Assembly: GCF_001750725.1 (NCBI RefSeq) | Contig: NZ_CP017279.1 | Location: forward strand, 3,534,001-3,598,000 | DNA from: Enterobacter ludwigii | GTDB taxonomy: Bacteria > Pseudomonadota > Gammaproteobacteria > Enterobacterales > Enterobacteriaceae | DNA length: 64,000 nt | Direction: 5' to 3' | Shown: piece by piece, positions 3,796-57,259 of the stretch | Numbering within the stretch: the stretch's first letter is position 1 | Layout: every line of letters begins with the position of its first letter | The notes under the pieces: model-generated | The model's input: only the letters and a program-made list of their open reading frames with translations | The model's database searches: none | What the model was told of the DNA's origin: nothing | Translations under genes and position numbers: made by a program

Positions 3796-4257
<462 letters not shown>

Positions 4258-4279
4258 TTTTACTCTGCTCACGTCGAAG

Positions 4280-4310
4280 CGCCGGCCTTGTGCCGGCGTT
4301 TTGCTTTTTT
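4280..4310 (+). terminator. Terminator of the rpsF-rplI operon
   Basis: CGCCGGC (4280-4286) pairs with GCCGGCG (4292-4298) around a five-base loop, followed by TTTTGCTTTTTT. Confidence 0.9.
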
Positions 4311-4407
4311 AAGGGACCAGGCTCGCGCTTTAGTGCTTGTAGGGTCGCTATTCCTGGCGCATTCTCTGATAATAAAATGAAACGCAATTTTATTTATGAG
4401 ATTCGAC

Positions 4408-5337
4408 ATGGAAACCGCTCTGCCCACGCCCGTATTTGCCCGTCGAAAGGTGGCCTATGCCTGCGCCACGCTCTGCTGTCTGCTTTGGGGTAGCTCTTAC
4501 CCGGCCATAAAAAGCGGCTATGAACTCTTCCAGATTGCCACCGATGATATTCCCTCAAAGGTCGTGTTCGCCGGTTACCGTTTTCTGTTTGCGGGTGTGC
4601 TGCTGCTTCTCTTTGCGTTAGCACAGCGCAAGCCCATCGGCAGGTTCACGCCCGGGCAGTTTGGGCAATTGACCGTCCTGGGACTGACGCAGACGAGCAT
4701 TCAGTACACCTTCTTTTATATCGGACTGGCCTACACGACAGGTGTGAACGGCTCGATCATGAACGCCACCGGCACTTTCTTCAGCGTGCTGCTGGCGCAC
4801 TTCATCTACCACAACGACAAGCTCAGCTATAACAAAACGCTTGGCTGTATTCTGGGCTTTGCCGGAGTGATGCTGGTTAACTTCCACGGCGGGTTAAGCG
4901 AATTCAGCTTCGTCTGGAAGGGCGACGGGTTTGTGGTGCTGGCAGCCTTTATCCTTTCTGCCGCCACGCTTTACGGAAAACGCATCTCCCAGACCGTCGA
5001 CCCGACAGTAATGACCGGCTGGCAGCTGGCTATCGGCGGCGCGGCGCTGGTGGCGGGTGGCTATCTCACGGGAGGGACGCTGGAAGTGCATAGCATGACG
5101 GCCGTCGCGGTGCTGGGGTATCTGACGTTACTCTCTTCGGTAGCGTTCGCCCTCTGGAGCGCGCTGCTGAAAGTGAACCGCGTAAGTATGATTGCCCCGT
5201 TCAACTTTGTGATCCCCGTTGCCGGGACGGTGCTGTCCGCCATTTTCCTCGGTGAAAACATTCTGGACATCAAATATGCGATTGCGCTGGTGCTGGTCTG
5301 CTCGGGGATCTGGTGGGTCAATAAGCGGAGTCACTAA
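4408..5337 (+). CDS. EamA-family (DMT superfamily) inner-membrane transporter
   Basis: A 309-residue, ten-helix drug/metabolite transporter with two EamA repeats. The first has LLWGSSYPAIK near the N-terminus; the second starts around residue 165 (AAFILSAATLYGKR) and ends with FLGE and GIWWVNKRSH. The substrate cannot be read from the sequence. An in-frame ATG four codons earlier (4396) is also possible, but its upstream region is poor. The gene sits between rplI and ytfB, where E. coli K-12 has other genes, so it is an accessory insertion. It ends convergently to ytfB with a REP-like palindrome between them. Confidence 0.88.
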   Translation: METALPTPVFARRKVAYACATLCCLLWGSSYPAIKSGYELFQIATDDIPSKVVFAGYRFLFAGVLLLLFALAQRKPIGRFTPGQFGQLTVLGLTQTSIQYTFFYIGLAYTTGVNGSIMNATGTFFSVLLAHFIYHNDKLSYNKTLGCILGFAGVMLVNFHGGLSEFSFVWKGDGFVVLAAFILSAATLYGKRISQTVDPTVMTGWQLAIGGAALVAGGYLTGGTLEVHSMTAVAVLGYLTLLSSVAFALWSALLKVNRVSMIAPFNFVIPVAGTVLSAIFLGENILDIKYAIALVLVCSGIWWVNKRSH

Positions 5338-5347
5338 GAAGGGCATT

Positions 5348-5376
5348 GCCGGGGGGCTGGCTCGCCTTACCCGGCC
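5348..5376. repeat. REP-like palindrome between convergent genes
   Basis: GCCGGGGGG and CCTTACCCGGC form imperfect arms around GCTGGCTCG, the layout of enterobacterial repetitive extragenic palindromes. It lies between the EamA gene and ytfB. Confidence 0.6.
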
Positions 5377-5382
5377 GGAACA

Positions 5383-6027
5383 TTAACGTGCTCTGATAAA
5401 ACTGCCGTCAGGCTGGCGGGTAAACAGCACCTGCTGGCCATTTCCCGTATCAATCGTGAGCCCGGTGACGACGCCGCTGGCATTCTGACGTATCTGCACC
5501 AGCTGGCCGTTCTGCAAATTACTGAGCGGCTTGCCCGCGCCTTCCACCTGCGCCATGGCATACACATCGGTTGGCGGCAGATTGTGGTCGCGGAACAGCT
5601 GCGCAAGGGTTTTACCTGGCTCTACGCGATAGGAACGCCACTGCTGCTCAATGCCGGTTGGCTGCTGAGCCTGTGGCTCTGCCGGGGCCGCTGCCTGTTC
5701 CTGTGGCTGTTCATCCTGAATGGGTTCCGGTTCAACAGGCGCAACCTGTCCCGGATCGTTCGACGGGGTGACCAGTTGCGTCTGCACAGGCTGGGTGTCC
5801 GGCTGCGGTCGCGTTTGCGACTGAATATCCAGCTGGGCATTGCGGGTCACCGTCGCGGTGTCGGCGTCATCGCCACCGGAAGGAAGCAGGAAACCCACGA
5901 TCACCATCAGCGCGCCAATGATGATCCCTCTGCGATGCAGAGGCGGCAGCGGGTCCATGATGCGAAAATTGTCCGGCGCCTGCCAGATTTTCGCCAGGGT
6001 AGGTTTCAGTTCAAATCGCCCGGGCAT
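5383..6027 (-). CDS. ytfB: Cell-division-associated protein YtfB (OapA family)
   Basis: A 214-residue membrane-anchored protein of the opacity-associated-protein A family. It has a cytoplasmic N-terminus, one transmembrane helix (IIIGALMVIVGFLL at about 34-47), a low-complexity Pro/Gln/Glu periplasmic linker (about 60-130) and a C-terminal LysM/OapA-type domain (YRVEPGKTLAQLFRDHNLP). In E. coli YtfB associates with the divisome and binds peptidoglycan glycans. It is transcribed divergently from fklB across a 233-base gap. Confidence 0.93.
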   Translation of the reverse strand: MPGRFELKPTLAKIWQAPDNFRIMDPLPPLHRRGIIIGALMVIVGFLLPSGGDDADTATVTRNAQLDIQSQTRPQPDTQPVQTQLVTPSNDPGQVAPVEPEPIQDEQPQEQAAAPAEPQAQQPTGIEQQWRSYRVEPGKTLAQLFRDHNLPPTDVYAMAQVEGAGKPLSNLQNGQLVQIRQNASGVVTGLTIDTGNGQQVLFTRQPDGSFIRAR

Positions 6028-6260
6028 GGCTCTCCTCCTGCTCCGCGTCTTTTTTATCCTGTGCTCCGAAGTATAGTTTGCTAACTGCCTGAACGGCGTA
6101 GCAAACCCGACATCCGTGACATTCGTTCGGGATTAATCCTGGTTCTCTCTATTGTTTCTGTTTCGTCGCGGTTTGTCACCTTAACTTCAGACAAAGTTTT
6201 ACCCATAAGGGCATGGCTGATATGCTGCCCGCTACTTTAAATGTGATGGAAGGAAAACCC

Positions 6261-6881
6261 ATGACCACCCCGACTTTTGACACTATCGAAGCGCAGGCAA
6301 GTTACGGTATCGGCTTGCAGGTAGGACAGCAGCTGAGCGAATCCGGCCTGGAAGGTCTGTTACCCGAAGCGCTGGTGGCGGGTATCGCTGATGCGCTGGA
6401 AGGCAACAACCCGGCAGTTCCGGTTGATGTTGTGCACCGTGCGCTGCGTGAAATCCACGAACGTGCTGACGCCGTGCGTCGCGCGCGTTTCGAAGAGATG
6501 GCTGCAGAAGGCGTGAAATATCTGGAAGAGAACCGTGAGCGTGAAGGCGTGAACAGCACCGAGTCTGGCCTGCAGTTCCGCGTGATCAATCAGGGCGACG
6601 GCGCAATCCCGGCGCGTACTGACCACGTTCGCGTGCACTACACCGGTAAACTGATCGACGGTACGGTGTTCGACAGCTCTGTAGCACGTGGCGAACCGGC
6701 TGAATTCCCGGTTAACGGCGTTATCGCGGGCTGGATCGAAGCGCTGACCCTGATGCCAGTGGGTTCCAAATGGGAACTGACTATCCCGCACAACCTGGCG
6801 TACGGCGAGCGTGGCGCTGGTGCGTCCATCCCGCCATTCAGCACCCTGGTGTTTGAAGTCGAGCTGCTGGAAATTCTGTAA
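6261..6881 (+). CDS. fklB: FKBP-type peptidyl-prolyl isomerase FklB (FKBP22)
   Basis: Catalyses cis-trans isomerisation of Xaa-Pro bonds. It has 206 residues, the E. coli FklB length: an N-terminal helical dimerisation domain (about 1-90) and a C-terminal FKBP domain with [16 protein letters not shown] and [24 protein letters not shown]. No signal peptide, so it is cytosolic. The ATG at 6261 is preferred over an upstream in-frame ATG because AAGGA lies just before it and the length matches. Confidence 0.97.
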
Positions 6882-6895
6882 TCAGCTTTTCTTAT

Positions 6896-6921
6896 TTCCT
6901 CTCTTCTTCGGGGGAGAGGAA
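6896..6921 (+). terminator. Possible fklB transcript-end hairpin
   Basis: TTCCTCTC (6896-6903) pairs with GAGAGGAA (6914-6921). There is no U-tract, so termination is uncertain. Confidence 0.35.
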
Positions 6922-7149
6922 TATAGTGATAAAACCTATAGTTACGACGGAATCAACATTTTATCTTGCAAACGAAACTGTTGCGTGTATTTTTGTGAGC
7001 TGTTTCGCGTTGTATGAGTGATATGACACTCACTTTAAACATATTATTAACATAATATCCAAATCATAGTATTCATCCCGCCGATTCTTACCTAATATCG
7101 ATGAGTCCTTTCATGGGGACCGTTATTTTTTTGACGTATTTAAAGGCCA

Positions 7150-47292: not shown

Positions 47293-47679
47293 ATGCGTAA
47301 ACACCTGTTAGCGATCGTCGCAGCGTCAACGCTGGTTCTTGGTTCTTCTGCGTTTGCTGCCGATCTTGAAGACGACATGGGCATCCTCAGTGAAAACCTG
47401 AAGGTGGTGCAGAAAACGGACAATGCGGCGGAAATGAAAGGCGCATTGACCAAAATGCGTGAAGCGGCACTGGACGCGCAGAAATCCACGCCGCCAAAGC
47501 TGGAAAACAAAGCGGCAGACAGCGCTGAGATGAAAGACTACCGCCACGGCTTTGACGTGCTGGTCGGTCAGATTGACGGTGCACTGAAGCTTGCCAACGA
47601 AGGCAAAGTGAAGGAAGCCCAGGCGGCAGCCGACCAGTTTGTGACCACGCGTAATACCTATCACAAAAAGTATCGTTAA
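47293..47679 (+). CDS. cybC: Soluble cytochrome b562
   Basis: Periplasmic four-helix-bundle haem protein of 128 residues. The signal peptide ends SSAFA, and the mature protein starts ADLEDDM. The axial haem ligands are Met7 and His102 in mature numbering, both present ([12 protein letters not shown]). The electron partner is unknown. The start has AGGAAGTGAG upstream. In E. coli K-12 nrdG follows; here about 9.5 kb of accessory genes intervene. Confidence 0.97.
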
Positions 47680-47701
47680 TTCTCGCTACGCGCTTTCCCC
47701 G

Positions 47702-47727
47702 TGCGGGGGCGGTTAATCGCCCCCGCA
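47702..47727 (+). terminator. cybC terminator
   Basis: TGCGGGGGCG (47702-47711) pairs with CGCCCCCGCA (47718-47727), a 10-bp GC stem; the tail TGTTTGCTTT is only moderately T-rich. Confidence 0.75.
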
Positions 47728-47829
47728 TGTTTGCTTTCCGGGCATAAGAAAACCTTATCCACCTCACATATTTGCACGCCTGCCCATAATCTTTTTCGCT
47801 CCCACGCCCCCTTAATTGCCGTCAGATAG

Positions 47830-47845
47830 CGTGATATTCATCACG
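47830..47845 (+). promoter_or_regulatory. CRP-like site upstream of the catabolic operon
   Basis: CGTGAT-ATTC-ATCACG keeps the CRP core GTGA-N6-TCAC with perfect symmetry. A second, weaker match, TGTGGC-ACAG-ATCACT, lies at 47881-47896. Catabolite control of a carbon-use operon would be expected. Confidence 0.5.
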
Positions 47846-47909
47846 TAAATACAGTGATTTATCTATATTCAGCATATTTATGTGGCACAGATCACTGCCG
47901 GTGCTCGCC

Positions 47910-47929
47910 TTTCCACTTCGAAGTGGAAA
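47910..47929 (+). promoter_or_regulatory. Perfect 20-bp palindrome, candidate operator
   Basis: TTTCCACTTCGAAGTGGAAA is fully self-complementary and lies 87 bases before the PRD gene, downstream of the CRP-like sites. It is the obvious candidate site for the PRD/EIIB/EIIA regulator encoded at 54755-56665. The rest of the 336-base gap is AT-rich promoter DNA. Confidence 0.5.
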
Positions 47930-48015
47930 ACAACTCGCTACAAACAATTCCCCCCCAACGTTAGTTTTATTCCAGAGCCATTAACGGGGTAAGACGAGTG
48001 ATTAACGGAGCGGTA

Positions 48016-48336
48016 ATGAACGACGTTGGAGATCAGGCGGTGCAAACAGAGCAGCTCGCTAACACCATGCTGGCGCAGGTGTATGCCCTGCTGGCCCGGC
48101 ACAACATCATCCCCAACGCAGTACAGGAACAGATGCTCACCTCCCACGTTCGCGCGATGGCGCACCGGTCCGTGACCGGCGAGCCGCTGCCGGAGGTTGA
48201 AGCCGAGCTGTTCGACGAAATTTCTCCCGATTCAATGCGGCTTGCCCGTGAAGTGGTCGCGCAGTTTGGCAACCTTCCTGATGAAGAGGCCTGGCTGCTT
48301 TCCGTTCACTTCGAAGTCGCGAAAGACAACCTTTAA
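48016..48336 (+). CDS. Stand-alone PRD-domain protein
   Basis: A 106-residue protein that is essentially one PTS regulation domain: MLTSHVRAMAHRSVTGEPLP carries the first conserved His/Arg block and EEAWLLSVHFEVA the second. PRDs normally sit inside antiterminators and activators and are phosphorylated by HPr or EIIB. A lone PRD with no DNA- or RNA-binding domain at the head of an operon is unusual. GGAG precedes the ATG by six bases; a GTG six codons earlier is an alternative. The next gene starts 10 bases on. Confidence 0.8.
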   Translation: MNDVGDQAVQTEQLANTMLAQVYALLARHNIIPNAVQEQMLTSHVRAMAHRSVTGEPLPEVEAELFDEISPDSMRLAREVVAQFGNLPDEEAWLLSVHFEVAKDNL

Positions 48337-48346
48337 GGAGCAACAC

Positions 48347-48709
48347 ATGGAACAGATTACAGTCGTGATTGGCGATCGCCTGGGTAAAGGTCAGAAAGTG
48401 GCGGCAGGCGTTGAAAAAGCCGGTGGACGCGCGGTTGTCGTGCCGGGTGTGGCGGCAGACATGAAGCTCGGTGACGTGATGAAAGCGGAAAATGCCACCT
48501 TCGGCATCTCCTTCTGCGGCAGCGGCGGCGCGGGTGCCATCACCGCACAAACCAAATATGGCTACAAAGCCAAATACGGCATGCGTTCAGTGGATGAAGG
48601 CGTCACCGCCATCAATGAAGGCTGCAATGTGCTGGGCTTTGGCTTTATGGATAAAGAAGAGCTGGGCGAGCGTCTGGTTCAGGCGTGGCAGAAGAAACAC
48701 GGCGCATAA
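48347..48709 (+). CDS. SFCGS-family glycine-rich protein
   Basis: A 120-residue soluble protein: an N-terminal strand (MEQITVVIGDRLGKGQ), then TFGISFCGSGGAGAI (52-66) with the family-naming SFCGS and a single prominent cysteine C57. A GYKAKYG loop and a GFGFMDKEELGERLV helix follow. No biochemical role is known to me. Its place beside a PRD protein and two membrane proteins suggests a cytosolic component of a transporter, perhaps EIIB-like; that is inference. The start has AAGGAG before it. Confidence 0.82.
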   Translation: MEQITVVIGDRLGKGQKVAAGVEKAGGRAVVVPGVAADMKLGDVMKAENATFGISFCGSGGAGAITAQTKYGYKAKYGMRSVDEGVTAINEGCNVLGFGFMDKEELGERLVQAWQKKHGA

Positions 48710-48711
48710 GC

Positions 48712-49011
48712 ATGAAAGAACAGTTCACAACCACGGTGAGGGTGAAGGGCAAAGGCGACGCTAAAGCGCGCGCCTTCGCTGATGCGCTCAACCACGTTCA
48801 GGCCGCGGTGATGAAAGCCTCACCGCATATCTTACTGCGTATTGAGCCACAGGATGTGCAGGTCGTTCAGGCGCAAGAAGCGGTGCGTAAAGAAGCTTTT
48901 CTGTTCTTCTTTCTGCGCCGGGAAAGACGCACCTACAGCGTGGAGCTGGATGTGACCGTCAACGTGACTGCCATCAATCTCGACCAGGTGGATTTCGTCA
49001 CGCAACGCTGA
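48712..49011 (+). CDS. DUF4312-family small protein
   Basis: A 99-residue soluble protein starting MKEQFTTTVRVKGKGDAKARAF, with a mid segment EAVRKEAFLFFFLRRERRTYS and an alternating-strand end (VELDVTVNVTAINLDQVDFV). This is the pattern of the DUF4312 family that always accompanies SFCGS, DUF4311 and DUF4310 genes. The start lies 2 bases after the previous stop without a clear ribosome-binding site, so translation is probably coupled. Function unknown. Confidence 0.8.
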   Translation: MKEQFTTTVRVKGKGDAKARAFADALNHVQAAVMKASPHILLRIEPQDVQVVQAQEAVRKEAFLFFFLRRERRTYSVELDVTVNVTAINLDQVDFVTQR

Positions 49012-49033
49012 TTATTCATAAAAGGGCAGACTG

Positions 49034-49810
49034 ATGTTCTTAATTATATTAATAAAATCGCTCATCATTGGCGGCCTGGTTGGCGTCGGTGTGGGGGCCG
49101 GGGCTGCACGCATGTTTCATGCGCCTACCACTCAGGGTATGGGCGCGTTTCGTACGTTGGGGGAACTGAACTCCTGTGAAGGGGATCCGGCTTCTCACTT
49201 CTCCTTTGGGTTAGGCTTCTTCTTTAACGCCTGGGCCTCTTCCGTGGCTGCAGGTGCATTCACACAGGACGTTGACCACCGTATCATCCCGAACTGGGGT
49301 GCTGCAGCACTGATGATTAAAAACCGTAACGTCGGCGAAACGCTGCACGATCCGCGCAAAATGGCAATTGCCTGCGGCGTGATCGGCATGATTGTCGTCA
49401 CCTTCCTTAACCTCACCGCCTCTTCTGTTCCGGCTGCGCTTCAGGTAACCGCCGTGAAGGTGCTGGTGCCTGCAGCAAACCTGCTGGTCAACACCGTGAT
49501 GCCGGTGATCTTCTGGCTGGCCGCCATCGATGCGGGTAAAAAATCGGGCTTCTGGGCCACCATTTTTGGCGGCGCGGCGCAGCTGATCATGGGTAACGCC
49601 GTACCGGGTCTGGTGCTGGGTATCCTGATCGGTAAGGGCGTTGAAGAGAGCGGATGGAACCACGTCACCAAAGTGATGATGGCGGCCATCGTGGCGCTGT
49701 TCGTGCTGAGCGGTTTCTTCCGTGGCTTCGACATGAAGATGATCGAATCCTTCCATCTGACCGTGCCGAACTGGCTCGACATGATCCACAACGCGCTCAG
49801 CGGTAAATAA
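49034..49810 (+). CDS. DUF4311-type integral membrane protein
   Basis: A 258-residue inner-membrane protein with about six to seven helices. The N-terminus is IILIKSLIIGGLVGVGVGAGAARMF. A conserved polar loop (FRTLGELNSCEGDPASHFSFGLGFFFNAW) and Gly-rich helices (FGGAAQLIMGNAVPGLVLGI) follow. The Gly-rich re-entrant-looking segments suit a transport channel. It is probably one half of a two-subunit transporter with the next gene. The family number is from memory and could be swapped with DUF4310. Confidence 0.78.
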   Translation: MFLIILIKSLIIGGLVGVGVGAGAARMFHAPTTQGMGAFRTLGELNSCEGDPASHFSFGLGFFFNAWASSVAAGAFTQDVDHRIIPNWGAAALMIKNRNVGETLHDPRKMAIACGVIGMIVVTFLNLTASSVPAALQVTAVKVLVPAANLLVNTVMPVIFWLAAIDAGKKSGFWATIFGGAAQLIMGNAVPGLVLGILIGKGVEESGWNHVTKVMMAAIVALFVLSGFFRGFDMKMIESFHLTVPNWLDMIHNALSGK

Positions 49811-49823
49811 CAGGAGCCTCGAC

Positions 49824-50465
49824 ATGGAACAGAATAAAGGTTTTTGGTATGCCGACTGGTCGTTCCCGATCTTCGTTGGCCTGCTCTCTTCCGGTGTTTT
49901 CGCCGGGACGCATATGTACTACCTCTACGGCATCGGCGCGTTCAACGAAGTGGCCTTCGTGGCGATGCTGAAAGCGGGGATGGATACCGGCGTTTACGGC
50001 GCGGTGGCGGCGTTCGGTGCCAGCTTCCTGTTCGCCCGTATTATCGAAGGGTCGCTGGTCGGTATCCTTGATATCGGCGGGGCGATCCAGACCGGGGTGG
50101 GTCTCGGGGTTCCGGCGCTGCTGCTGGGCGCGGGCATCATGTTCCCGGTGACCAACTTTATTGCCGCGCTGATCACCGGCCTGGTGATTGGCCTGGCAAT
50201 TGGCTACGTCATCATCCTGGCGCGTAAGTTCACCATCAATCAGAGCAACTCCACCTACGGGGCGGACGTGATGATGGGCGCCGGTAACGCCTCCGGTCGT
50301 TTCCTCGGGCCGTTGATTATCCTCAGCGCCATGACCGCCTCCATTCCTATTGGTGTCGGCTCTCTGGTGGGTGCGCTGCTGTTCTATATCTGGCAGAAGC
50401 CGATTACCGGTGGCGCCATTCTCGGTGCAATGATTCTGGGCTGGCTGTTCCCGGTCGCCCTTTAA
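49824..50465 (+). CDS. DUF4310-type integral membrane protein
   Basis: A 213-residue inner-membrane protein with about five to six helices: WSFPIFVGLLSSGVFAGTHMYY, FGASFLFARIIEGSLVGILD, VGLGVPALLLGAGIMFPVTN and the C-terminal GGAILGAMILGWLFPVAL. It starts 13 bases after the DUF4311-type gene with CAGGAG upstream. The two are presumed to form a membrane complex. No homology to known PTS EIIC, MFS or ABC permeases is recognisable by eye. Confidence 0.78.
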   Translation: MEQNKGFWYADWSFPIFVGLLSSGVFAGTHMYYLYGIGAFNEVAFVAMLKAGMDTGVYGAVAAFGASFLFARIIEGSLVGILDIGGAIQTGVGLGVPALLLGAGIMFPVTNFIAALITGLVIGLAIGYVIILARKFTINQSNSTYGADVMMGAGNASGRFLGPLIILSAMTASIPIGVGSLVGALLFYIWQKPITGGAILGAMILGWLFPVAL

Positions 50466-50470
50466 TGCCC

Positions 50471-50490
50471 GCGGGCGCTCCGGCGCCCGC
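50471..50490 (+). other. Perfect GC hairpin inside the operon
   Basis: GCGGGCGC (50471-50478), TCCG, GCGCCCGC (50483-50490) directly follows the DUF4310-type stop and is not followed by a U-tract. It sits between the transporter genes and the enzyme genes and could protect or punctuate the mRNA. Confidence 0.65.
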
Positions 50491-50507
50491 CTTATCAGGA
50501 GATCCTC

Positions 50508-51641
50508 ATGTTCGATTTACTCCTGCGCCGTGCGCGCCTCACCGACGATACCCTGACCGATATCGCCATTCAGGACGGAAAAATCGCGGCGGTGGGCGAC
50601 ATTACCGCGCCCGCCCGCAAAACGGTTGAGTTGAACGGTGAAGTGTTCGTCAGCGCAGGCTGGATTGACTCCCACGTTCACTGCTACCCGAACTCCCCTA
50701 TTTATCACGACGAGCCGGACAGCGTGGGCATCGCCACCGGCGTGACCTCAGTGGTGGATGCCGGCAGTACCGGCGCGGATGACGTGGACGATTTTTATGA
50801 AATCACCCGTAAAGCCTCAACCGACGTTTATGCCTTACTGAACATCTCCCGCGTGGGGCTGATTGCCCAGAACGAACTGGCCAATATGGCCAACATTGAT
50901 GCGAAGGCCGTGAAGCAGGCCGTCACGCGCTACCCGGATTTTATCGTTGGCCTGAAAGCGCGCATGAGCAGCAGCGTGGTCGGCGAAAACGGCATTACGC
51001 CGCTTGAGCACGCGAAAGCCATCCAGAAAGAGAACGGCGACCTGCCGCTGATGGTGCACATCGGCAACAACCCGCCCAACCTCGATGAAATTGCCGACCT
51101 GCTCAGCTCAGGCGACATCATCACCCACTGCTACAACGGCAAGCCGAACCGCATTCTGACGCCATCCGGTGAACTGCGTGCGTCCATCACCTCCGCCCTG
51201 AAACGCGGTGTGCGCCTGGACGTCGGACACGGTACGGCGAGCTTTAGCTTTGAGGTGGCGAGACGCGCCATTGCGATGGGCATTCTGCCACACACCATCA
51301 GCTCGGATATTTACTGCCGCAACCGCATTAACGGCCCGGTAGGGTCGCTGGCAAGCGTGATGTCGAAGTTTCTCGCCATCGGCATGTCGCTGCCGCAGGT
51401 GATTGAGTGCGTCACCGCGAACGCCGCCGACGGGCTGCGTCTGACGCACAAAGGCCGTATTCAGCCAGGCCTCGATGCCGACCTGACGCTGTTCACGATA
51501 AAACGCCAGCCAACGCTGCTGGTGGATGCTGAAAATGACAGCCTGCAGGCTGAACACATTCTGGTGCCGCTTGCCGCCATCCGCGCAGGCAAGGGCTACA
51601 TGACCGAACAAGGGAGCACAGAACATGCCTTCGATTTATGA
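50508..51641 (+). CDS. cog3964-type amidohydrolase/deacetylase metalloenzyme
   Basis: A 377-residue amidohydrolase-superfamily TIM barrel. Metal ligands: H56 and H58 (DSHVH), K150 for carbamylation (GLKARMS), H184 (MVHIGN), H207 (THCYNG), with catalytic D267 (ISSD). It is often misnamed dihydroorotase; characterised cog3964 relatives deacetylate alpha-acetylated carboxylates. In this operon it probably removes an acyl group before the PLP step. It overlaps the next gene by 17 bases. Confidence 0.87.
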   Translation: MFDLLLRRARLTDDTLTDIAIQDGKIAAVGDITAPARKTVELNGEVFVSAGWIDSHVHCYPNSPIYHDEPDSVGIATGVTSVVDAGSTGADDVDDFYEITRKASTDVYALLNISRVGLIAQNELANMANIDAKAVKQAVTRYPDFIVGLKARMSSSVVGENGITPLEHAKAIQKENGDLPLMVHIGNNPPNLDEIADLLSSGDIITHCYNGKPNRILTPSGELRASITSALKRGVRLDVGHGTASFSFEVARRAIAMGILPHTISSDIYCRNRINGPVGSLASVMSKFLAIGMSLPQVIECVTANAADGLRLTHKGRIQPGLDADLTLFTIKRQPTLLVDAENDSLQAEHILVPLAAIRAGKGYMTEQGSTEHAFDL

Positions 51642-52743
51642 GAAGTATCACTTAAAGCAAGTCATCAACACCTCAGGCCGTATGACGGCGCTGGGTGTTT
51701 CCACGCCGCGCCCGGACGTGGTGCAGGCGGCGATGGATGGCATGAATCACTATTTCGAGATGAAGGATCTGGTCAACAAAACCGGCGAATACATCGCAAA
51801 GCTGCTGGATGTGGAAGGGGCGACGGTGGTCTCCTGCGCGTCAGCGGGCATCGCCCAGTCCGTGGCGGCGGTGCTGGTCAAAAACAGCGACTGGCTGCTG
51901 GAGAACCTGCACGTCACCCCAATTGAGAACAACGAAATCGTGCTGCCGAAAGGCCATAACGTTAACTTTGGCGCACCGGTAGGCACCATGGTGGCGCTGG
52001 GCGGCGGCAAGCTGGTGGAAGCGGGCTACGCGAACGAATGCTCCGCCGATCAGCTGGCGGCGGCCATCACGCCGCGTACCGCGGCCATCCTTTACATCAA
52101 GTCTCACCACTGCGTGCAGAAAAGCATGCTCAGCGTAGAGCAGGCGGCAGTGGTGGCGCGTAAGCACGATCTGCCGCTGATCGTGGATGCGGCCGCGGAA
52201 GAGGATCTTCACGTTTACTATCGCTCCGGTGCCGATCTGGTTATCTACAGCGGTGCGAAAGCGATTGAAGGGCCAACCAGCGGGCTGGTGATCGGCAAAA
52301 CGCAGTATGTTGAGTGGGTGAAACGCCAGACGGCGGGGATTGGCCGCGCAATGAAAGTGGGTAAAGAGGGGATCCTCGGCCTTACCTGTGCCATCGAACA
52401 CTACCTGACGGCGACCAAAGAGAGCGGCGAAGAGATGGTGGCGAAGATGACGCCCTTTATTGACGCGCTTAATACCCTTAACGGCGTGACGGCACGCGTG
52501 GTCTGGGACAGTGCCGGTCGCGATATCGCCCGTACCGAGATTAAGTTTGATGAAGCCACCACCGGTGTTGGCACCGGCGACCTGGTGACCGCGCTGAAGC
52601 AAGGCGAGTACGCCATTTACTTCCGTGGCTACAAGGCCAACGAAGGGATTATCGAAGCGGACGTGCGCAGCGTGAATGCCGATCAGCTGAACATTGTTTA
52701 TCGCCGCATGAGTGAAGTGTTAGGACAGGAGAAAAAGGCATGA
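51625..52743 (+). CDS. DgaE-family PLP-dependent ammonia-lyase (SelA-like fold)
   Basis: A 372-residue fold-type I PLP enzyme. The PLP-binding lysine is K212 in the SGAKAIEGPTSG motif, and DAAAEEDLH supplies the pyridine-nitrogen aspartate. DgaE of Salmonella dehydrates and deaminates D-glucosaminate 6-phosphate to 2-keto-3-deoxy-6-phosphogluconate. Here it pairs with a DgaF-like aldolase as in the dga operon, but without the mannose-type PTS. Older annotations call such proteins L-seryl-tRNA(Sec) selenium transferase-like. Its end overlaps the next gene by ATGA. Confidence 0.88.
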   Translation: MPSIYEKYHLKQVINTSGRMTALGVSTPRPDVVQAAMDGMNHYFEMKDLVNKTGEYIAKLLDVEGATVVSCASAGIAQSVAAVLVKNSDWLLENLHVTPIENNEIVLPKGHNVNFGAPVGTMVALGGGKLVEAGYANECSADQLAAAITPRTAAILYIKSHHCVQKSMLSVEQAAVVARKHDLPLIVDAAAEEDLHVYYRSGADLVIYSGAKAIEGPTSGLVIGKTQYVEWVKRQTAGIGRAMKVGKEGILGLTCAIEHYLTATKESGEEMVAKMTPFIDALNTLNGVTARVVWDSAGRDIARTEIKFDEATTGVGTGDLVTALKQGEYAIYFRGYKANEGIIEADVRSVNADQLNIVYRRMSEVLGQEKKA

Positions 52744-53480
52744 AACTGACCCCCAACTTTTACCGTGACCGCGTCTGCCTGAACGTGCTGGCAGGATCGA
52801 AAGCCAACGCCAGCGCCATTTACGAGGCGGCGGAAGGCCACGTGCTGGTGGGCGTGCTCTCCAAAAATTACCCGGATGTCGCCAGTGCGGTTGCCGATAT
52901 GCGCGACTACGCTCAGCTTATCGATAATGCGCTCTCTGTGGGCCTCGGCGCAGGCGATCCGAACCAGTCCGGGATGGTCAGTGAGATCGCCCGTCAGGTG
53001 CAGCCGCAGCACGTTAACCAGGTGTTCACCGGCGTGGCAACCAGCCGTGCGCTGCTGGGGCAGAGTGAATCCGTGGTCAACGGCCTGGTCTCTCCGACCG
53101 GCACCGTTGGCAAGGTGAAAATCTCCACCGGTCCGCTGAGCAGCACGGCGCCGGACGGCATTGTGCCGGTTGAAACCGCGATTGCCCTGCTGAAAGATTT
53201 TGGCGGCAGCTCCATCAAATACTTCCCGATGGGAGGCCTGGCGTGTCGGGACGAATACCAGGCAGTGGCGGAAGCCTGCGCCCGTCACGATTTCTGGCTG
53301 GAGCCGACCGGTGGGATCGATCTGGAGAACTATGAAGCGATCCTGCTGATCGCCCTTGATGCGGGCGTGAGTAAAATCATTCCGCATATCTACAGCTCGA
53401 TTATCGACAAAGCCAGCGGCGACACGCGTCCGGAAGATGTGCGTACGCTGCTGGAGATGACGAAGAAGCTGGCTAAGTAG
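52740..53480 (+). CDS. DgaF-family KDGP aldolase
   Basis: A 246-residue class I aldolase-type TIM barrel. The Schiff-base lysine candidate is K160 in SSIKYFPMGG; LEPTGGID closes the phosphate site. DgaF splits 2-keto-3-deoxy-6-phosphogluconate into pyruvate and glyceraldehyde 3-phosphate, so the pathway would end in central metabolism. The start overlaps the ammonia-lyase stop (ATGA). A paired palindromic repeat follows. Confidence 0.88.
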   Translation: MKLTPNFYRDRVCLNVLAGSKANASAIYEAAEGHVLVGVLSKNYPDVASAVADMRDYAQLIDNALSVGLGAGDPNQSGMVSEIARQVQPQHVNQVFTGVATSRALLGQSESVVNGLVSPTGTVGKVKISTGPLSSTAPDGIVPVETAIALLKDFGGSSIKYFPMGGLACRDEYQAVAEACARHDFWLEPTGGIDLENYEAILLIALDAGVSKIIPHIYSSIIDKASGDTRPEDVRTLLEMTKKLAK

Positions 53481-53486
53481 TCTTTA

Positions 53487-53568
53487 CCCCTCACCCCGGC
53501 CCTCTCCCCTTTGGGGAGAGGGTGTAATCGTCCCCTCTCCCCAAAGGGGAGAGGGTTAGGGTGAGGGG
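53487..53568. repeat. Paired-palindrome repeat, copy 2 (aldolase-lactonase)
   Basis: Outer arms CCCCTCACCC and GGGTGAGGGG (53559-53568) enclose two hairpins, each of CCCTCTCCCC and GGGGAGAGGG arms with loops TTT and AAA. It fills the gap between two co-directional genes. Confidence 0.88.
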
Positions 53569-53598
53569 CACAAACCGCACAAAACCAAAGGAGCCACC

Positions 53599-54735
53599 AT
53601 GCACACCCGCAATCTGCTCGTCGCTTCACTCTCGTTACTCGCTACCACCGCCATCGCCCAGACGCAGTACGCCTGGGTCGGGACGTACAACCCCAACGGC
53701 GAGGGGCTGTACCGCTTTACCCTCGACCCGCAAACCGGTGCGCTCGCGAATAAAACGCTGGTCAGCACGTTGCCAAACGCCGCGCAGCTCACCGTCTCGC
53801 AGGATGGTAAGACGCTCTATCTGGCGAGCGAAGTGGAGCAGGGCGTGGTGCAGGCGCTGCGCGTGGGCGATAACGGCGAACTGAGCGAGCTTAATCAGGT
53901 GGCGTCCGGCGGAGCGGGGCCGGTCTATCTCTCCCTGACGCCAAAGGGTCACCACCTGCTGGTGGCGAACTACGTCAGCGGCTCGATTGCTGTTCTGCCC
54001 GTTAATGCAGACGGCAGTCTGGGGGAGGCCACGGACACGCATCAGGATCGGGGAGAGCCGGGCGCGGCGAAACCGGTGGCGGCGGTGGAAGGCAGTTTTG
54101 CCATTAGCGATCACAATGGCCCTCATGCGCACATGATCGCCGCCGATCCGCGCGGGAAATACGTTTTTTCTACCGATCTGGGTCTGGATCGTATCTACCA
54201 GTACCGTTTTGACGATCAAACAGGCAAGCTGACGCCGAACGATCCGCCGTTTATCAGTACCTCCTCGAAAGGGGCCGGTCCGCGGCATTTCGTCTTTACG
54301 CCGAAAGGCGATGCGTTATGGCTGATTAACGAAGAGGCATCCACGCTCACGCACTATACGCTGGATGCCCGGGGCAGGCTGCAGGAGGGGAAAACCCTCT
54401 CCGCCCTGCCACACGGCTATAAAGGCACCAGCTTTGCCGCCGGGCTGGCGCTCAGTGCCGATGGCAAACAGCTGTATGTGGCTAACCGTTTGCATAACAG
54501 CATCGGGCACTTTACCGTAACAGCGGATGGCACGCTGACGCATCAGGACGATGTGTGGACGCGTGGTGATTACCCGCGCACCCTGACGCTCGACAAACAG
54601 GGGCGCTGGCTGTACGTCATGAATCAGCGCAGCGACAACATTACCCGTTTTCGCGTGGCGCAGGACGGCAAACTCAGCGCCGAGCCGGACTATACCCCGG
54701 TCGGCAGCCCATCCCAGATGGTCATTTCACCCTAA
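53599..54735 (+). CDS. Exported seven-bladed beta-propeller lactonase (YbhE family)
   Basis: A 378-residue protein with a signal peptide (MHTRNLLVASLSLLATTAIA) and repeated propeller blades (YAWVGTYNPNGEGLYRFTLD, GPHAHMIAADPRGKYVFSTD, KQLYVANRLHNSIGHFTV, RWLYVMNQRSDNITRFRV). Family members such as Pgl open 6-phosphogluconolactone in the cytosol, but this one is built for the periplasm. It may hydrolyse a lactone form of the operon substrate before uptake; the substrate is unknown. GGAG precedes the start. Confidence 0.85.
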   Translation: MHTRNLLVASLSLLATTAIAQTQYAWVGTYNPNGEGLYRFTLDPQTGALANKTLVSTLPNAAQLTVSQDGKTLYLASEVEQGVVQALRVGDNGELSELNQVASGGAGPVYLSLTPKGHHLLVANYVSGSIAVLPVNADGSLGEATDTHQDRGEPGAAKPVAAVEGSFAISDHNGPHAHMIAADPRGKYVFSTDLGLDRIYQYRFDDQTGKLTPNDPPFISTSSKGAGPRHFVFTPKGDALWLINEEASTLTHYTLDARGRLQEGKTLSALPHGYKGTSFAAGLALSADGKQLYVANRLHNSIGHFTVTADGTLTHQDDVWTRGDYPRTLTLDKQGRWLYVMNQRSDNITRFRVAQDGKLSAEPDYTPVGSPSQMVISP

Positions 54736-54754
54736 GCCGTAAGAGGACAACCCC

Positions 54755-56665
54755 GTGCGATTTCCGAACCAACGTTTAGCGCAACTTTTCGATCTGTTGC
54801 AAAACGAGACGCTGCCGCAGGACGAACTGGCGCAGCGGCTGTCGGTCTCCACGCGAACCGTCCGCGCTGATATCACCGCCCTGAACGCGCTGCTGGCGAG
54901 CCACGGTGCGCAGTTTATTCTCAGCCGCGGCAATGGCTATCAGCTCAAAATTGACGATGCAGAACGCTATCAGCAGCTTCAGTCCTCACACCCGCGCGCG
55001 CTGCGCATTCCCCGCACCGGGCCGGAGCGCGTGCACTATCTGGTGGTCCGTTTTCTTACCTCCGCGTTTTCGCTCAAGCTGGAGGATCTGGCGGATGAGT
55101 GGTTTGTCAGCCGTGCGACGCTGCAAAGTGACATGGTGGAAGTGCGCGAGTGGTTCCACCGCTATAACCTGACGCTGGAAACCCGACCGCGCCACGGCAT
55201 GAAGCTGTTTGGCAGCGAGATGGCGACCCGCGCCTGTCTCACCGATCTGCTCTGGGAGCTGGCGCAGCAGGATAGCCTGAACCCGCTGGTGACCGACGTT
55301 GCGCTCAATGCGGGGGTGGCGGAGCAGATGGTTCCCGTGCTGCACGATGCGCTGACGCGGCATCACATTCGTCTGACTGACGAGGGCGAGCTGTTCCTGC
55401 GCCTGTACTGTGCGGTGTCGGTGCGTCGCATCAGCGAGGGCTATCCGCTGCCGGAATTTCACGCAGAAGATGTGGCCGAGAATGTCCGTGAGGCGGCGAA
55501 AGACATCGCTGTGACCATTCAACAGCTGGCGGATAAAGCGCTTTCGCCTTCAGAAGAGAGCTGGCTCTGCGTTCACATCGCGGCACGTCAGATCCAGGAG
55601 ATTGCCCCCAGTGCCATCAATGCCGATGACGACGAAGCGCTGGTCAATTACATCCTGCGCTACATCAATACCCACTATAACTACAACCTGCTCAGCGACG
55701 AGCAACTGCATGCGGATTTGCTCACCCACATCAAAACCATGATCACCCGCGTGCGCTATCAAATCATGATCCCGAATCCGCTTTTGGATAACATCAAGCA
55801 GCACTACCCGATGGCGTGGGATATGACCCTCGCGGCAGTGTCGAGCTGGGGGAAATACACGCCGTATGTGATCAGCGAAAACGAGATCGGTTTCCTGGTG
55901 CTGCATATCGGCGTCGGGCTGGAGCGCCACTACAACATCGGCTACCAGCGCCAGCCGCGGGTGCTGTTAGTTTGCGATGCCGGGAATGCGATGGTCCGGA
56001 TGATTGAAGCGGTGCTGCAGCGCAAATATCCGCAGATTGAGGTGACCCGCACGCTCACGCTGCGCGAGTATGAGCTGGCGGAACCGATCGGCGAAGACTT
56101 TGTTATCTCGACCGCCCGGGTGAGCGAAAAGTCTAAACCGGTGGTGATGATCGCCCCGTTCCCGACGGACTACCAGCTTGAGCAGATAGGTAAGCTGGTG
56201 CTGGTGGACCGAACCCGCCCGTGGATGCTGGATAAATACTTCGATGCCGCCCATTTTCGCATTATCGACAGGCCGATTGACCAGCAAACGCTGTTCCGGG
56301 AGCTGTGCGAGCAGCTCGAAGAAGAGGGGTTTGTTGGCGCGGAGTTTCTGGATTCGGTGGTTGAGCGAGAGGCCATCGTCAGCACCATGCTGGGCGACGG
56401 CATTGCGCTGCCGCACTCCCTCGGGCTACTGGCACAAAAAACGGTGGTTTATACCGTGCTGGCACCACAGGGTATTGCCTGGGGGGATGAAACCGCCCAC
56501 GTGATTTTCCTGCTCGCCATCAGCAAGCGCGAGTACGAAGAGGCGATGGCGATTTACGATATTTTCGTGACTTTCCTGCGTGAGCGCGCCATGTCACGGC
56601 TGTGCAGTTGCAATGATTTCGCCGGGTTTAAAGCGGTGGCGATGGAGAGTGTGAGCCGGTTTTGA
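54755..56665 (+). CDS. PRD/EIIB/EIIA transcriptional activator (MtlR/ManR type)
   Basis: A 636-residue PTS-controlled regulator. HTH_11 at 4-60 (LPQDELAQRLSVSTRTVRAD), second Mga-type HTH at about 85-150, PRD1 at about 185-285, PRD2 at about 290-395 with H325 and H384, EIIB(Gat)-like domain at about 400-490 with C407 (VCDAGNAM), and EIIA(Fru)-like domain from about 500 with H554 (LPHS). PRD1 seems to lack its first histidine (LRLYCAVSVRR). It starts at GTG 54755 with AGAGGA before it. It likely activates the operon from 48016, although the transporter is not a recognisable PTS. Confidence 0.9.
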   Translation: MRFPNQRLAQLFDLLQNETLPQDELAQRLSVSTRTVRADITALNALLASHGAQFILSRGNGYQLKIDDAERYQQLQSSHPRALRIPRTGPERVHYLVVRFLTSAFSLKLEDLADEWFVSRATLQSDMVEVREWFHRYNLTLETRPRHGMKLFGSEMATRACLTDLLWELAQQDSLNPLVTDVALNAGVAEQMVPVLHDALTRHHIRLTDEGELFLRLYCAVSVRRISEGYPLPEFHAEDVAENVREAAKDIAVTIQQLADKALSPSEESWLCVHIAARQIQEIAPSAINADDDEALVNYILRYINTHYNYNLLSDEQLHADLLTHIKTMITRVRYQIMIPNPLLDNIKQHYPMAWDMTLAAVSSWGKYTPYVISENEIGFLVLHIGVGLERHYNIGYQRQPRVLLVCDAGNAMVRMIEAVLQRKYPQIEVTRTLTLREYELAEPIGEDFVISTARVSEKSKPVVMIAPFPTDYQLEQIGKLVLVDRTRPWMLDKYFDAAHFRIIDRPIDQQTLFRELCEQLEEEGFVGAEFLDSVVEREAIVSTMLGDGIALPHSLGLLAQKTVVYTVLAPQGIAWGDETAHVIFLLAISKREYEEAMAIYDIFVTFLRERAMSRLCSCNDFAGFKAVAMESVSRF

Positions 56666-56687: not shown

Positions 56688-56725
56688 GTAATGCAAATGT
56701 AATGCTAAAATGCATTACGCATTCG
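56688..56725 (+). promoter_or_regulatory. relBE operator
   Basis: Direct and inverted copies of GTAATGC (56688-56694 and 56699-56705) and GCATTAC (56712-56718), the inner pair six bases apart, with TAAAAT as a possible -10. This is a typical autoregulatory site for RelB/RelBE. Confidence 0.65.
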
Positions 56726-56742
56726 ATTTCACTGGAGGCATA

Positions 56743-56985
56743 ATGGCCACGCTGAACGTCCGTCTGGATGACAAACTCAAAAACGAGGCTTATGCCGTGC
56801 TTGAAAAACTCAATATCACGCCAACGGAAGCCGTTCGGTTACTGTTTCAGTACGTTGCGGAGACGGGGCGTATGCCGGTGAAAACGGTCACTGTTAGCGA
56901 CAGTGAAGATGAACTCATACAGACAGTCCGGGAGCGGCTGGCTAATCCGCAAAAAGGAATTAAGGTTAGGCTGGATGACTTATGA
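56743..56985 (+). CDS. relB: RelB/DinJ-family antitoxin
   Basis: An 80-residue ribbon-helix-helix antitoxin: MATLNVRLDDKLKNEAYAVL, then the helix LNITPTEAVRLLFQYVAETG, with an acidic toxin-binding tail (ERLANPQKGIKVRLDDL). It is preceded by GGAGG. It overlaps the toxin gene by 11 bases, the usual coupling that keeps antitoxin in excess. The module sits at the 3' end of the accessory insertion, beside nrdG. Confidence 0.92.
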   Translation: MATLNVRLDDKLKNEAYAVLEKLNITPTEAVRLLFQYVAETGRMPVKTVTVSDSEDELIQTVRERLANPQKGIKVRLDDL

Positions 56986-57259
56986 ACTCGTATTTGATCC
57001 GAGGGCGTTCAAGGAGTGGACCAGGCTGGGTGATACCGTAAAAAATCAGTTTAAGAAGAAGCTTGCGAACGTGTTGGTGAACCCCAGGGTTGAATCGGCT
57101 CGCCTGTATGGCCTGCCTGATTGCGACAAGATAAAACTCAGATCCCAGGGTTATAGTTTGGTCTATCAGGTTCATGACAACGTTGTGACGGTATGTGTTA
57201 TTACTATCGGTAAGAGAGAGAAATCAGCCGTTTATCATGACGCAAACAAACGGCTTTAG
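56975..57259 (+). CDS. relE: RelE-family mRNA interferase toxin
   Basis: A 94-residue toxin that aligns without gaps to E. coli RelE (FDPRAFKEWTRLGDTVKNQF, PDCDKIKLRSQGYSLVYQV, IGKREKSAVY). RelE cleaves mRNA in the ribosomal A site. Catalytic residues K52, K54, R81 and Y87 are kept, but R61 is replaced by Ser (GYS for GYR). Activity may be reduced or altered. The start codon lies within relB. It is convergent with nrdG, three bases away, with no terminator in between. Confidence 0.92.
   Translation: MTYELVFDPRAFKEWTRLGDTVKNQFKKKLANVLVNPRVESARLYGLPDCDKIKLRSQGYSLVYQVHDNVVTVCVITIGKREKSAVYHDANKRL

Follow-up and report, generated by a model that had tools for sequence, protein, structure and literature searches.

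Two described pathways are closest to the locus analysed here. In the dgaABCDEF operon of Salmonella (PMC9529869), a DgaE-family lyase and the DgaF aldolase are encoded in tandem, together with DgaABCD, a mannose-family EIIABCD permease of the phosphotransferase system (PTS). In the ong pathway of Pseudoalteromonas and Vibrio (PMC9537276), an N-acetyl amino-sugar acid is taken up by the SSS symporter OngIT, deacetylated by OngB, a protein of D-aminoacylase type, deaminated, and phosphorylated last, by KdgK, to yield 2-keto-3-deoxy-gluconate 6-phosphate (KDG-6-P). A third system, the gene cluster EF_0829 to EF_0839 (AHA_3910 to AHA_3917), gave its names to seven NCBIfam models (TIGR03577–TIGR03583), which are hypothetical equivalogs and give no function; curators had thus already linked these families to one gene neighbourhood. 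Here, we describe an operon of ten co-directional genes on the forward strand (47998/48016–56665) of a 64,000-nucleotide stretch of Enterobacter ludwigii DNA (contig NZ_CP017279.1, positions 3,534,001 to 3,598,000; hereafter, the window), seven proteins of which pass these seven models. We conclude that the operon is this cluster, which is known but lacks an explanation; the reading that suits it best is a variant of the dga pathway whose permease belongs to an unknown type.

As in dgaABCDEF, the genes for the DgaE-family lyase and the DgaF-type aldolase are in tandem, and the same KDG-6-P and products are predicted. The window operon differs in having four orphan families (SFCGS, DUF4312, DUF4311 and DUF4310) instead of the mannose-family permease, and in its additional N-deacylase, its PRD-type regulator and a lyase that falls under the cut-off of the strict DgaE model (NF047797, 377.7 bits against 600). 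The aldolase exceeds the cut-off of NF047796, the model for 2-dehydro-3-deoxy-phosphogluconate aldolase (387.3 bits against 300), and no second DgaE-family gene over the cut-off was found in the window's genome. With the ong pathway, the operon would share the N-acetyl amino-sugar acid, deacetylation, deamination and KDG-6-P, whereas its deacylase is of the cog3964 type, its lyase of the DgaE type and its control of the PTS type, with no kinase gene in the operon. The core is identical in kind to that of the EF_0829 to EF_0839 cluster, and the DgaE-type lyase of the window passes TIGR01437; the window operon adds an exported lactonase as an accessory. A cog3964 enzyme acts on (R)-alpha-acyl acids. 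The solved structure 8wzy is very close to the amidohydrolase of the window and 2ics is a relative, whereas solved D-aminoacylases match only weakly, over residues 15–86 (E ~1e-6), OngB itself lying outside this comparison.

The first-pass annotation of this DNA had described nine co-directional genes of an uncharacterised system with proteins of unnamed families. All the genes are where it placed them and pass curated cut-offs, but its own list comprises ten, and the families, although without function, belong to a cluster already modelled in NCBIfam. In agreement with it, the family assignments predict de-acylation, ammonia elimination and aldol cleavage of the 2-keto-3-deoxy-6-phosphogluconate type.

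Inferring the enzyme roles from family, uptake by elimination, and also the substrate and the control, we propose a self-contained, PTS-controlled catabolic operon with a four-subunit uptake complex and an N-acyl amino-aldonate 6-phosphate route, a reading that we hold to be slightly on the probable side. SFCGS, DUF4312, DUF4311 and DUF4310 would form the complex in the inner membrane, with two membrane and two soluble subunits, and would import an N-acylated 2-amino-2-deoxy-aldonate, most likely N-acetyl-D-glucosaminate (GlcNAc1A) or a close relative. The substrate would be a 6-phosphate on reaching the enzymes; the amidohydrolase would take off the acyl group, the DgaE-type lyase would eliminate ammonia to give KDG-6-P, and the aldolase would produce pyruvate and glyceraldehyde 3-phosphate. 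Expression would respond to PTS phosphorylation through the PRD/EIIA regulator and the lone PRD protein, with CRP control added.

Gene order and the candidate uptake set

The ten proteins of the window were compared with loci 10 kb or longer (n = 95, consisting of 79 GTDB loci, 4 plasmid records, 11 genomes and 1 Salmonella record). The GTDB loci were the best 80 of 488, minus one of 6.6 kb, and nearly all are titled Enterobacteriaceae or close kin. Because selection was by DUF4311 or DUF4310 throughout and close relatives predominate, the counts show constancy rather than independent events. The co-occurrence of the four families with DgaE and DgaF, proposed as a check in the first-pass annotation, took the form of a single order and strand of the nine core genes in 92 of the 95 loci. 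The exceptions were a locus reaching a contig end before the regulator gene (L056), an Enterococcus faecalis locus in which the regulator gene comes first and extra genes are inserted (L093), and an Aeromonas caviae locus (L096) in which residues 4–39 of DUF4310 are fused in frame to residues 98–244 of DgaF, the two genes between them being gone. The A. caviae locus is a degenerate copy; the fusion lies at L096:10714–11271, in a record of strain KAM479 (4.9 Mb, labelled as a plasmid) from which the amidohydrolase and DgaE genes are missing. In an 8-kb record labelled as Listeria phage (L143), the regulator gene comes first and the others keep their order, with none of the insertions seen in E. 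faecalis. In the shorter loci, some of which share a genome, SFCGS, DUF4312, DUF4311, DUF4310 and the amidohydrolase occurred together in 40 of 41, the remaining one beginning at a contig end with DUF4311, DUF4310 and the amidohydrolase visible. The four orphan families were not found without the enzymes in any intact locus among those examined, an arrangement that would have spoken against the earlier proposal. The exported lactonase of the first-pass annotation is present, with a match to PF10282, but is not part of the core, since it was found in 46 of the 95 long loci and, within our set, was confined to some of the Enterobacteriaceae-type loci.

The ten operon genes include no PTS permease subunit, SSS symporter or PfkB kinase. 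Sixty-nine flanking open reading frames (ORFs) were listed beside seven clusters (from Vibrio, Aeromonas and f105, a family of the same order with small genomes, probably Pasteurellaceae), and the 30 that were scanned, mostly the nearest ones, gave no match at E 1e-5 to a transporter family or a sugar-kinase family, two of them having no family at all. The copy carried by Bartonella plasmids, in a distant alphaproteobacterial host, is equally bare except for an added HPr-Enzyme I gene. Since the operon is otherwise complete, with no other multi-span protein and no flanking transporter, the four-protein set is, by elimination, the uptake candidate. Hydropathy analysis gave five strong membrane segments in DUF4311 and five in DUF4310, and no more than one in any other of the ten proteins: none over the threshold in SFCGS, DUF4312, the lone PRD protein and the lactonase, and one each in the amidohydrolase, DgaE, DgaF and the regulator, which belong to families known as soluble.

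The set is highly conserved. In alignments of 76 to 108 distinct rows per protein, after removal of short fragments, the proportion of columns conserved at 98% or more was 55% for DUF4311, the most conserved of the set, 54% for DUF4310 and 49% for SFCGS. The three enzymes reached 32–43%, and DUF4312 (20%), the lone PRD protein (19%) and the regulator (8%) were lower still. Identity between the window and E. faecalis was 67% for DUF4311, 73% for DUF4310 and 74% for SFCGS, against 46% for the amidohydrolase. The window DUF4311 is 99% identical to that of Lelliottia and Enterobacter loci, the closest named among the best 80 of 488 GTDB relatives. No kinship between DUF4311 and DUF4310 was detectable (hhalign probability 1%). 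Below the cut-offs, an MMPL match was seen for 11 of the 47 rows of DUF4310 (best E 0.09) and an LrgA match for 6 of the 35 rows of DUF4311 (best E 0.04), and DUF2232 was weakly matched by 35 of 35 DUF4311 members (best E 8e-4). Sub-cut-off matches to DUF4311 were also seen in four other places and in an E. coli control, and three of the proteins concerned were judged by eye to be chance.

Possible phosphorylation by the four-protein set and rival roles

Both regulatory proteins of the operon are of the PTS type. In the regulator, the columns of PRD His325 and His384 and of EIIA His554 hold histidine in 96 of 96 aligned rows, and His50 and His104 of the lone PRD protein (numbering from 47998) are kept in 108 of 108. 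EIIA_2 was found in 5 of 5 proteobacterial regulators scanned. The first-pass annotation had seen PRD, EIIB and EIIA domains in the regulator; PRD and EIIA_2 pass Pfam, but EIIB has no Pfam match and was read by eye from a VCDAGN motif, the EIIB-like Cys407 being kept in 88 of 96 rows. In SFCGS, Cys57 is invariant and lies inside the sequence CGSGGAG. Two CRP-like sites were found in the region 47680–48015, against a mean of 0.14 in 500 shuffles, and a third site with 8 of 10 core bases, at 47647, lies outside the tested region and inside the preceding gene. The cluster starts at STM4440 in the numbering of Salmonella LT2 and probably ends with STM4448, and STM4441-2 is listed as Crp-regulated in a published table (PMC11000858).

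Two observations speak for PTS dependence, the one on Bartonella plasmids being the more telling. Arg303, Arg334 and Arg348 of the window DgaE, matched by eye on the alignment to R301, R332 and R346 of the Salmonella enzyme, are kept in 97 of 97 rows; the Salmonella study places these arginines near the substrate phosphate by manual docking (PMC9529869). The carboxylate residue R226 of Salmonella DgaE corresponds to Lys225 in the window, in a column with 83 Lys and 14 Arg. On both Bartonella plasmids, an HPr-Enzyme I fusion gene begins 64 bases 3' of the regulator gene. The next relatives listed for this protein (~55%) are from Caballeronia and Paraburkholderia, and in the one annotated Caballeronia relative, of two fetched, a ptsG EIIBC gene follows the fusion. 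This suggests that such fusions accompany a PTS permease, a place that the four-protein set takes in Bartonella. The fusions of Bartonella (L094:8047–10062, this operon) and Caballeronia (L208:8482–11019, ptsG) are possibly self-contained portable phosphorelays.

The phosphorylation of the substrate by the set itself is the least certain part of our reading; given that the set is the permease, we rate it somewhat under even. In its most far-reaching form, which we consider unlikely without dismissing it, the set would import N-acyl amino-sugar acids, phosphorylate them at position 6 and constitute a PTS Enzyme II class of its own, with no kinship to the EIIC superfamilies described so far. Phosphate would pass from HPr via an EIIA, either the regulator's domain or a different one, and perhaps via Cys57 of SFCGS, and the system would supply a phosphorylating form of the catabolism of oxidised chitin (GlcNAc1A). 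A number of observations weigh against these proposals. None of the four proteins exceeds the cut-off of a PTS Enzyme II or other transporter family in Pfam or NCBIfam, and no EIIC model was matched by DUF4311 or DUF4310; membership in a known transporter family, which would have overturned the first-pass annotation, was thus not found, both membrane proteins lying below every transporter cut-off. No solved structure is related by sequence to DUF4311, DUF4310 or DUF4312, and SFCGS has only a weak match to RpiB (E 0.36). The AlphaFold models are poor, with a predicted local distance difference test score (pLDDT) of 55 for DUF4310 (44 rows) and 61 for DUF4311 (32 rows), and Foldseek found no PDB entry matching either of them at E ≤0.001, so we claim no fold for either protein. 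In a simple permease, the membrane parts would not usually surpass the enzymes in conservation, and DUF4312 has no phosphorylatable invariant residue, as no His, Cys or Asp is invariant in its alignment. The phosphate-site arginines are kept in 8t7j as well and thus define the DgaE family rather than this cluster, and the docking that placed them was manual. The HPr-Enzyme I proteins of the two Bartonella plasmids are 99.7% identical and the plasmids are close relatives, so they count as one event, and the fusion could serve the regulator alone. Pfam finds no EIIA_2 in the E. faecalis regulator or in that of the Listeria-labelled record, one having been scanned from each, and the EIIA column is therefore untrustworthy for these. 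The E. faecalis cluster also adds a lactose-family EIIC, MupG and, after the aldolase gene, a KDG-kinase-like PfkB gene; with the regulators lacking EIIA_2, these additions imply that phosphorylation may serve regulation only. Sugar kinases may also lie elsewhere in the genomes, as the scans covered operons and flanking ORFs.

Several of these points would be expected if the set were a non-phosphorylating permease, ion-coupled for example, delivering the free acid, which would lose its acyl group and then its amino group to give 2-keto-3-deoxygluconate, to be phosphorylated by a separate kinase, with the PTS acting through the regulators only. We regard this as doubtful but by no means negligible. 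It would fit the kinase-like gene of E. faecalis, the regulators without EIIA_2 and the lack of Enzyme II homology in the four proteins, and the marine GlcNAc1A route, which relies on a sodium symporter and on KdgK, is of this kind (PMC9537276). However, no sugar kinase was found in the compact clusters or the scanned flanking ORFs, the DgaE phosphate-site arginines are kept throughout, and HPr-Enzyme I accompanies the operon in Bartonella, though possibly for the regulator alone. An improbable alternative is that the set is a membrane-bound enzyme or sensor complex with an RpiB-like SFCGS, the substrate entering through an unlinked general permease. The conservation of DUF4311, DUF4310 and SFCGS, higher than that of the enzymes, is as expected of catalytic machinery, and SFCGS leans weakly to RpiB rather than to EIIB, which is also a point against our own reading: it scores 16.4 bits against RpiB (PF02502), under the gathering score of 24.7 (E 0.009 in Pfam and 0.004 in NCBIfam), and its sole PDB match is the one at E 0.36. 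The likeness extends over about 75 residues and aligns the Cys of the CGTGxG loop of RpiB with that of the CGSGGAG loop of SFCGS, the DHGG stretch of RpiB reading by eye as DRLG in SFCGS, and does not imply function. In hhalign, SFCGS and RpiB gave a probability of 27% (P 7e-4, 81 columns) and SFCGS and PTS_IIB one of 0.5%, but a control of RpiB against PTS_IIB scored alike (26%, P 7e-4, 19 columns), so the RpiB lead is no better than this control and its score is not evidence by itself. The absence of any other transporter from the scanned compact loci, including the plasmid copy in an alphaproteobacterium, which would need its own uptake system, also argues against an enzyme or sensor. Kinship with the sodium-pumping MtrC/D/E of methanogens, by which the set would couple chemistry to ion transport, is very improbable. 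A KEGG match between DUF4310 and MtrC (3e-4) is noted in a Salmonella Infantis record, but the Pfam models MtrC, MtrD and MtrE all miss DUF4310 and DUF4311 in the window's genome, where the one MtrC match (E 0.7) is elsewhere, and Foldseek listed MtrD only at E 7.3, among noise and from a poor model. We dropped Mtr homology after the failure of the three Pfam models.

Substrate

The combination of a deacylase, a lyase of D-amino-acid type and a KDG-6-P aldolase points to an N-acyl 2-amino-2-deoxy-aldonate as the substrate. Our best guess is N-acyl-D-glucosaminate, with GlcNAc1A as the best natural candidate. GlcNAc1A is made by lytic polysaccharide monooxygenases (LPMOs) on chitin and is degraded in marine bacteria via the ong route (PMC9537276). 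For Aeromonas, a published search describes homologues of LPMO, KdgK and KdgA, and matches to OngB and OngC that are distant or none (PMC11653859). In our sample of the order, LPMO_10 was present in 79 of 295 genomes, comprising 16 of the 41 with DUF4311 over the cut-off and 63 of the 254 others. By family, the DUF4311 genomes with LPMO_10 were 11 of 11 in f103 (Aeromonas), 4 of 16 in f1, 1 of 1 in f93, 0 of 12 in f105 and 0 of 1 in f4. As LPMO_10 is lacking in 25 of the 41 DUF4311 genomes, including all 12 of f105, an LPMO is not needed and another source of the substrate must exist; we therefore rejected chitin as a general source. In three f1 genomes (G279:C1, G370:C22 and G591:C1), LPMO_10 lies 17–27 kb from the cluster, and we claim no link between them; the ORFs in between in G370 are presumably ordinary genes (P-type ATPase, trehalose and nrd genes).

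The insertion of EIIC and MupG genes in E. faecalis suggests that a disaccharide may supply these enzymes there. A 99-aa protein encoded between these two genes (L093:14887–15186) has no Pfam or NCBIfam match. In published work, analysed E. faecalis strains carry dgaE and dgaF homologues in duplicate (100% and 97.5%; PMC7396535), and a screen in urine yielded a fragment with the promoter of ef_0839 or ef_2975 (PMC2912369). A literature search, with most subscription papers outside its reach, found no description of a function for the four families.

Features of the operon, hosts and neighbouring genes

Positions in the window and family matches of the operon genes and the upstream sites
Feature	Position	Strand	Support
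Lone PRD-domain protein, EF_0829 type (TIGR03582); GTG start at 47998 or ATG start at 48016	47998..48336	+	138 bits, cut-off 69
SFCGS, soluble (TIGR03577, PF14272)	48347..48709	+	226 bits, cut-off 141
DUF4312, soluble (TIGR03578)	48712..49011	+	143 bits, cut-off 90
DUF4311, integral membrane protein (TIGR03580)	49034..49810	+	513 bits, cut-off 301
DUF4310, integral membrane protein (TIGR03579)	49824..50465	+	395 bits, cut-off 215
cog3964-type amidohydrolase, EF_0837 type, predicted N-deacylase (TIGR03583)	50508..51641	+	579 bits, cut-off 432
DgaE-family pyridoxal phosphate-dependent ammonia-lyase (TIGR01437)	51625..52743	+	605.9 bits, cut-off 385.3
KDG-6-P (KDGP) aldolase, DgaF type (TIGR03581, NF047796)	52740..53480	+	TIGR03581 400 bits, cut-off 222
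7-bladed lactonase, accessory; start resembling a signal peptide, by eye (PF10282)	53599..54735	+	324 bits, cut-off 22
HTH_11/Mga/PRD/EIIA_2 regulator with an EIIB-like stretch, by eye	54755..56665	+	Pfam cut-offs passed for HTH_11, Mga, PRD and EIIA_2
Two CRP-like sites upstream of the first gene	47827..47899	.	at 47827 and 47878, 8/10 core bases each

The operon is flanked upstream by a cytochrome b562-like gene and downstream by a pair of RelB/RelE type followed by nrdG/nrdD. This toxin-antitoxin pair, identified by eye (56710–56985 and 56903–57259, forward strand), lies directly 3' of the operon, and a toxin-antitoxin pair is annotated at the equivalent place in the Salmonella record (L142, 18397–18913).

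The cluster occurs in Enterobacteriaceae, Vibrio, Aeromonas and the f105 family, on Bartonella plasmids, and in Bacillota, where the evidence consists of the one E. faecalis record and the one 8-kb Listeria-labelled record; this range of hosts gives the linkage its broader support. DUF4310 was found in 12 of 398 sampled genomes of the phylum, and 41 of the 295 genomes sampled from the order had DUF4311 over the cut-off; 1472 relatives of DUF4310 are present in a database clustered at 90% identity. The cluster DNA had no match in 20,395 E. coli records at megablast sensitivity, and a scan of viral contigs revealed no relative of the cluster. Unannotated records labelled as phage (L143, H13, H14 and H17–H20) contain DNA of the operon, probably through host carry-over. 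The E. faecalis locus is in a 748-kb record labelled as a plasmid that has apparently chromosomal genes (murF, D-alanine ligase), making the label doubtful. On the Bartonella HY761 plasmid, a block with replication and ParA genes is inverted and duplicated (L095:121–3067 and 4139–7085). The Aeromonas regulators (f103) share 85–86% identity with the A. caviae one. In Aeromonas loci, the cluster adjoins rapZ in the opposite direction (L139:839–3939; L140:17124–17987), with rpoN close by in L139; it is thus near nitrogen-PTS genes, in a scan that left ptsN and npr outside.

The cluster is present in at least two phyla and includes four proteins without an assigned function. If the permease reading is true, it represents a sugar-acid uptake system of unknown type that has apparently spread as a unit and also has a copy on plasmids, and, if the set phosphorylates its substrate, a new permease class for the PTS. 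It would also provide a candidate GlcNAc1A route for Aeromonas, for which PMC11653859 gives distant matches or none to OngB and OngC.

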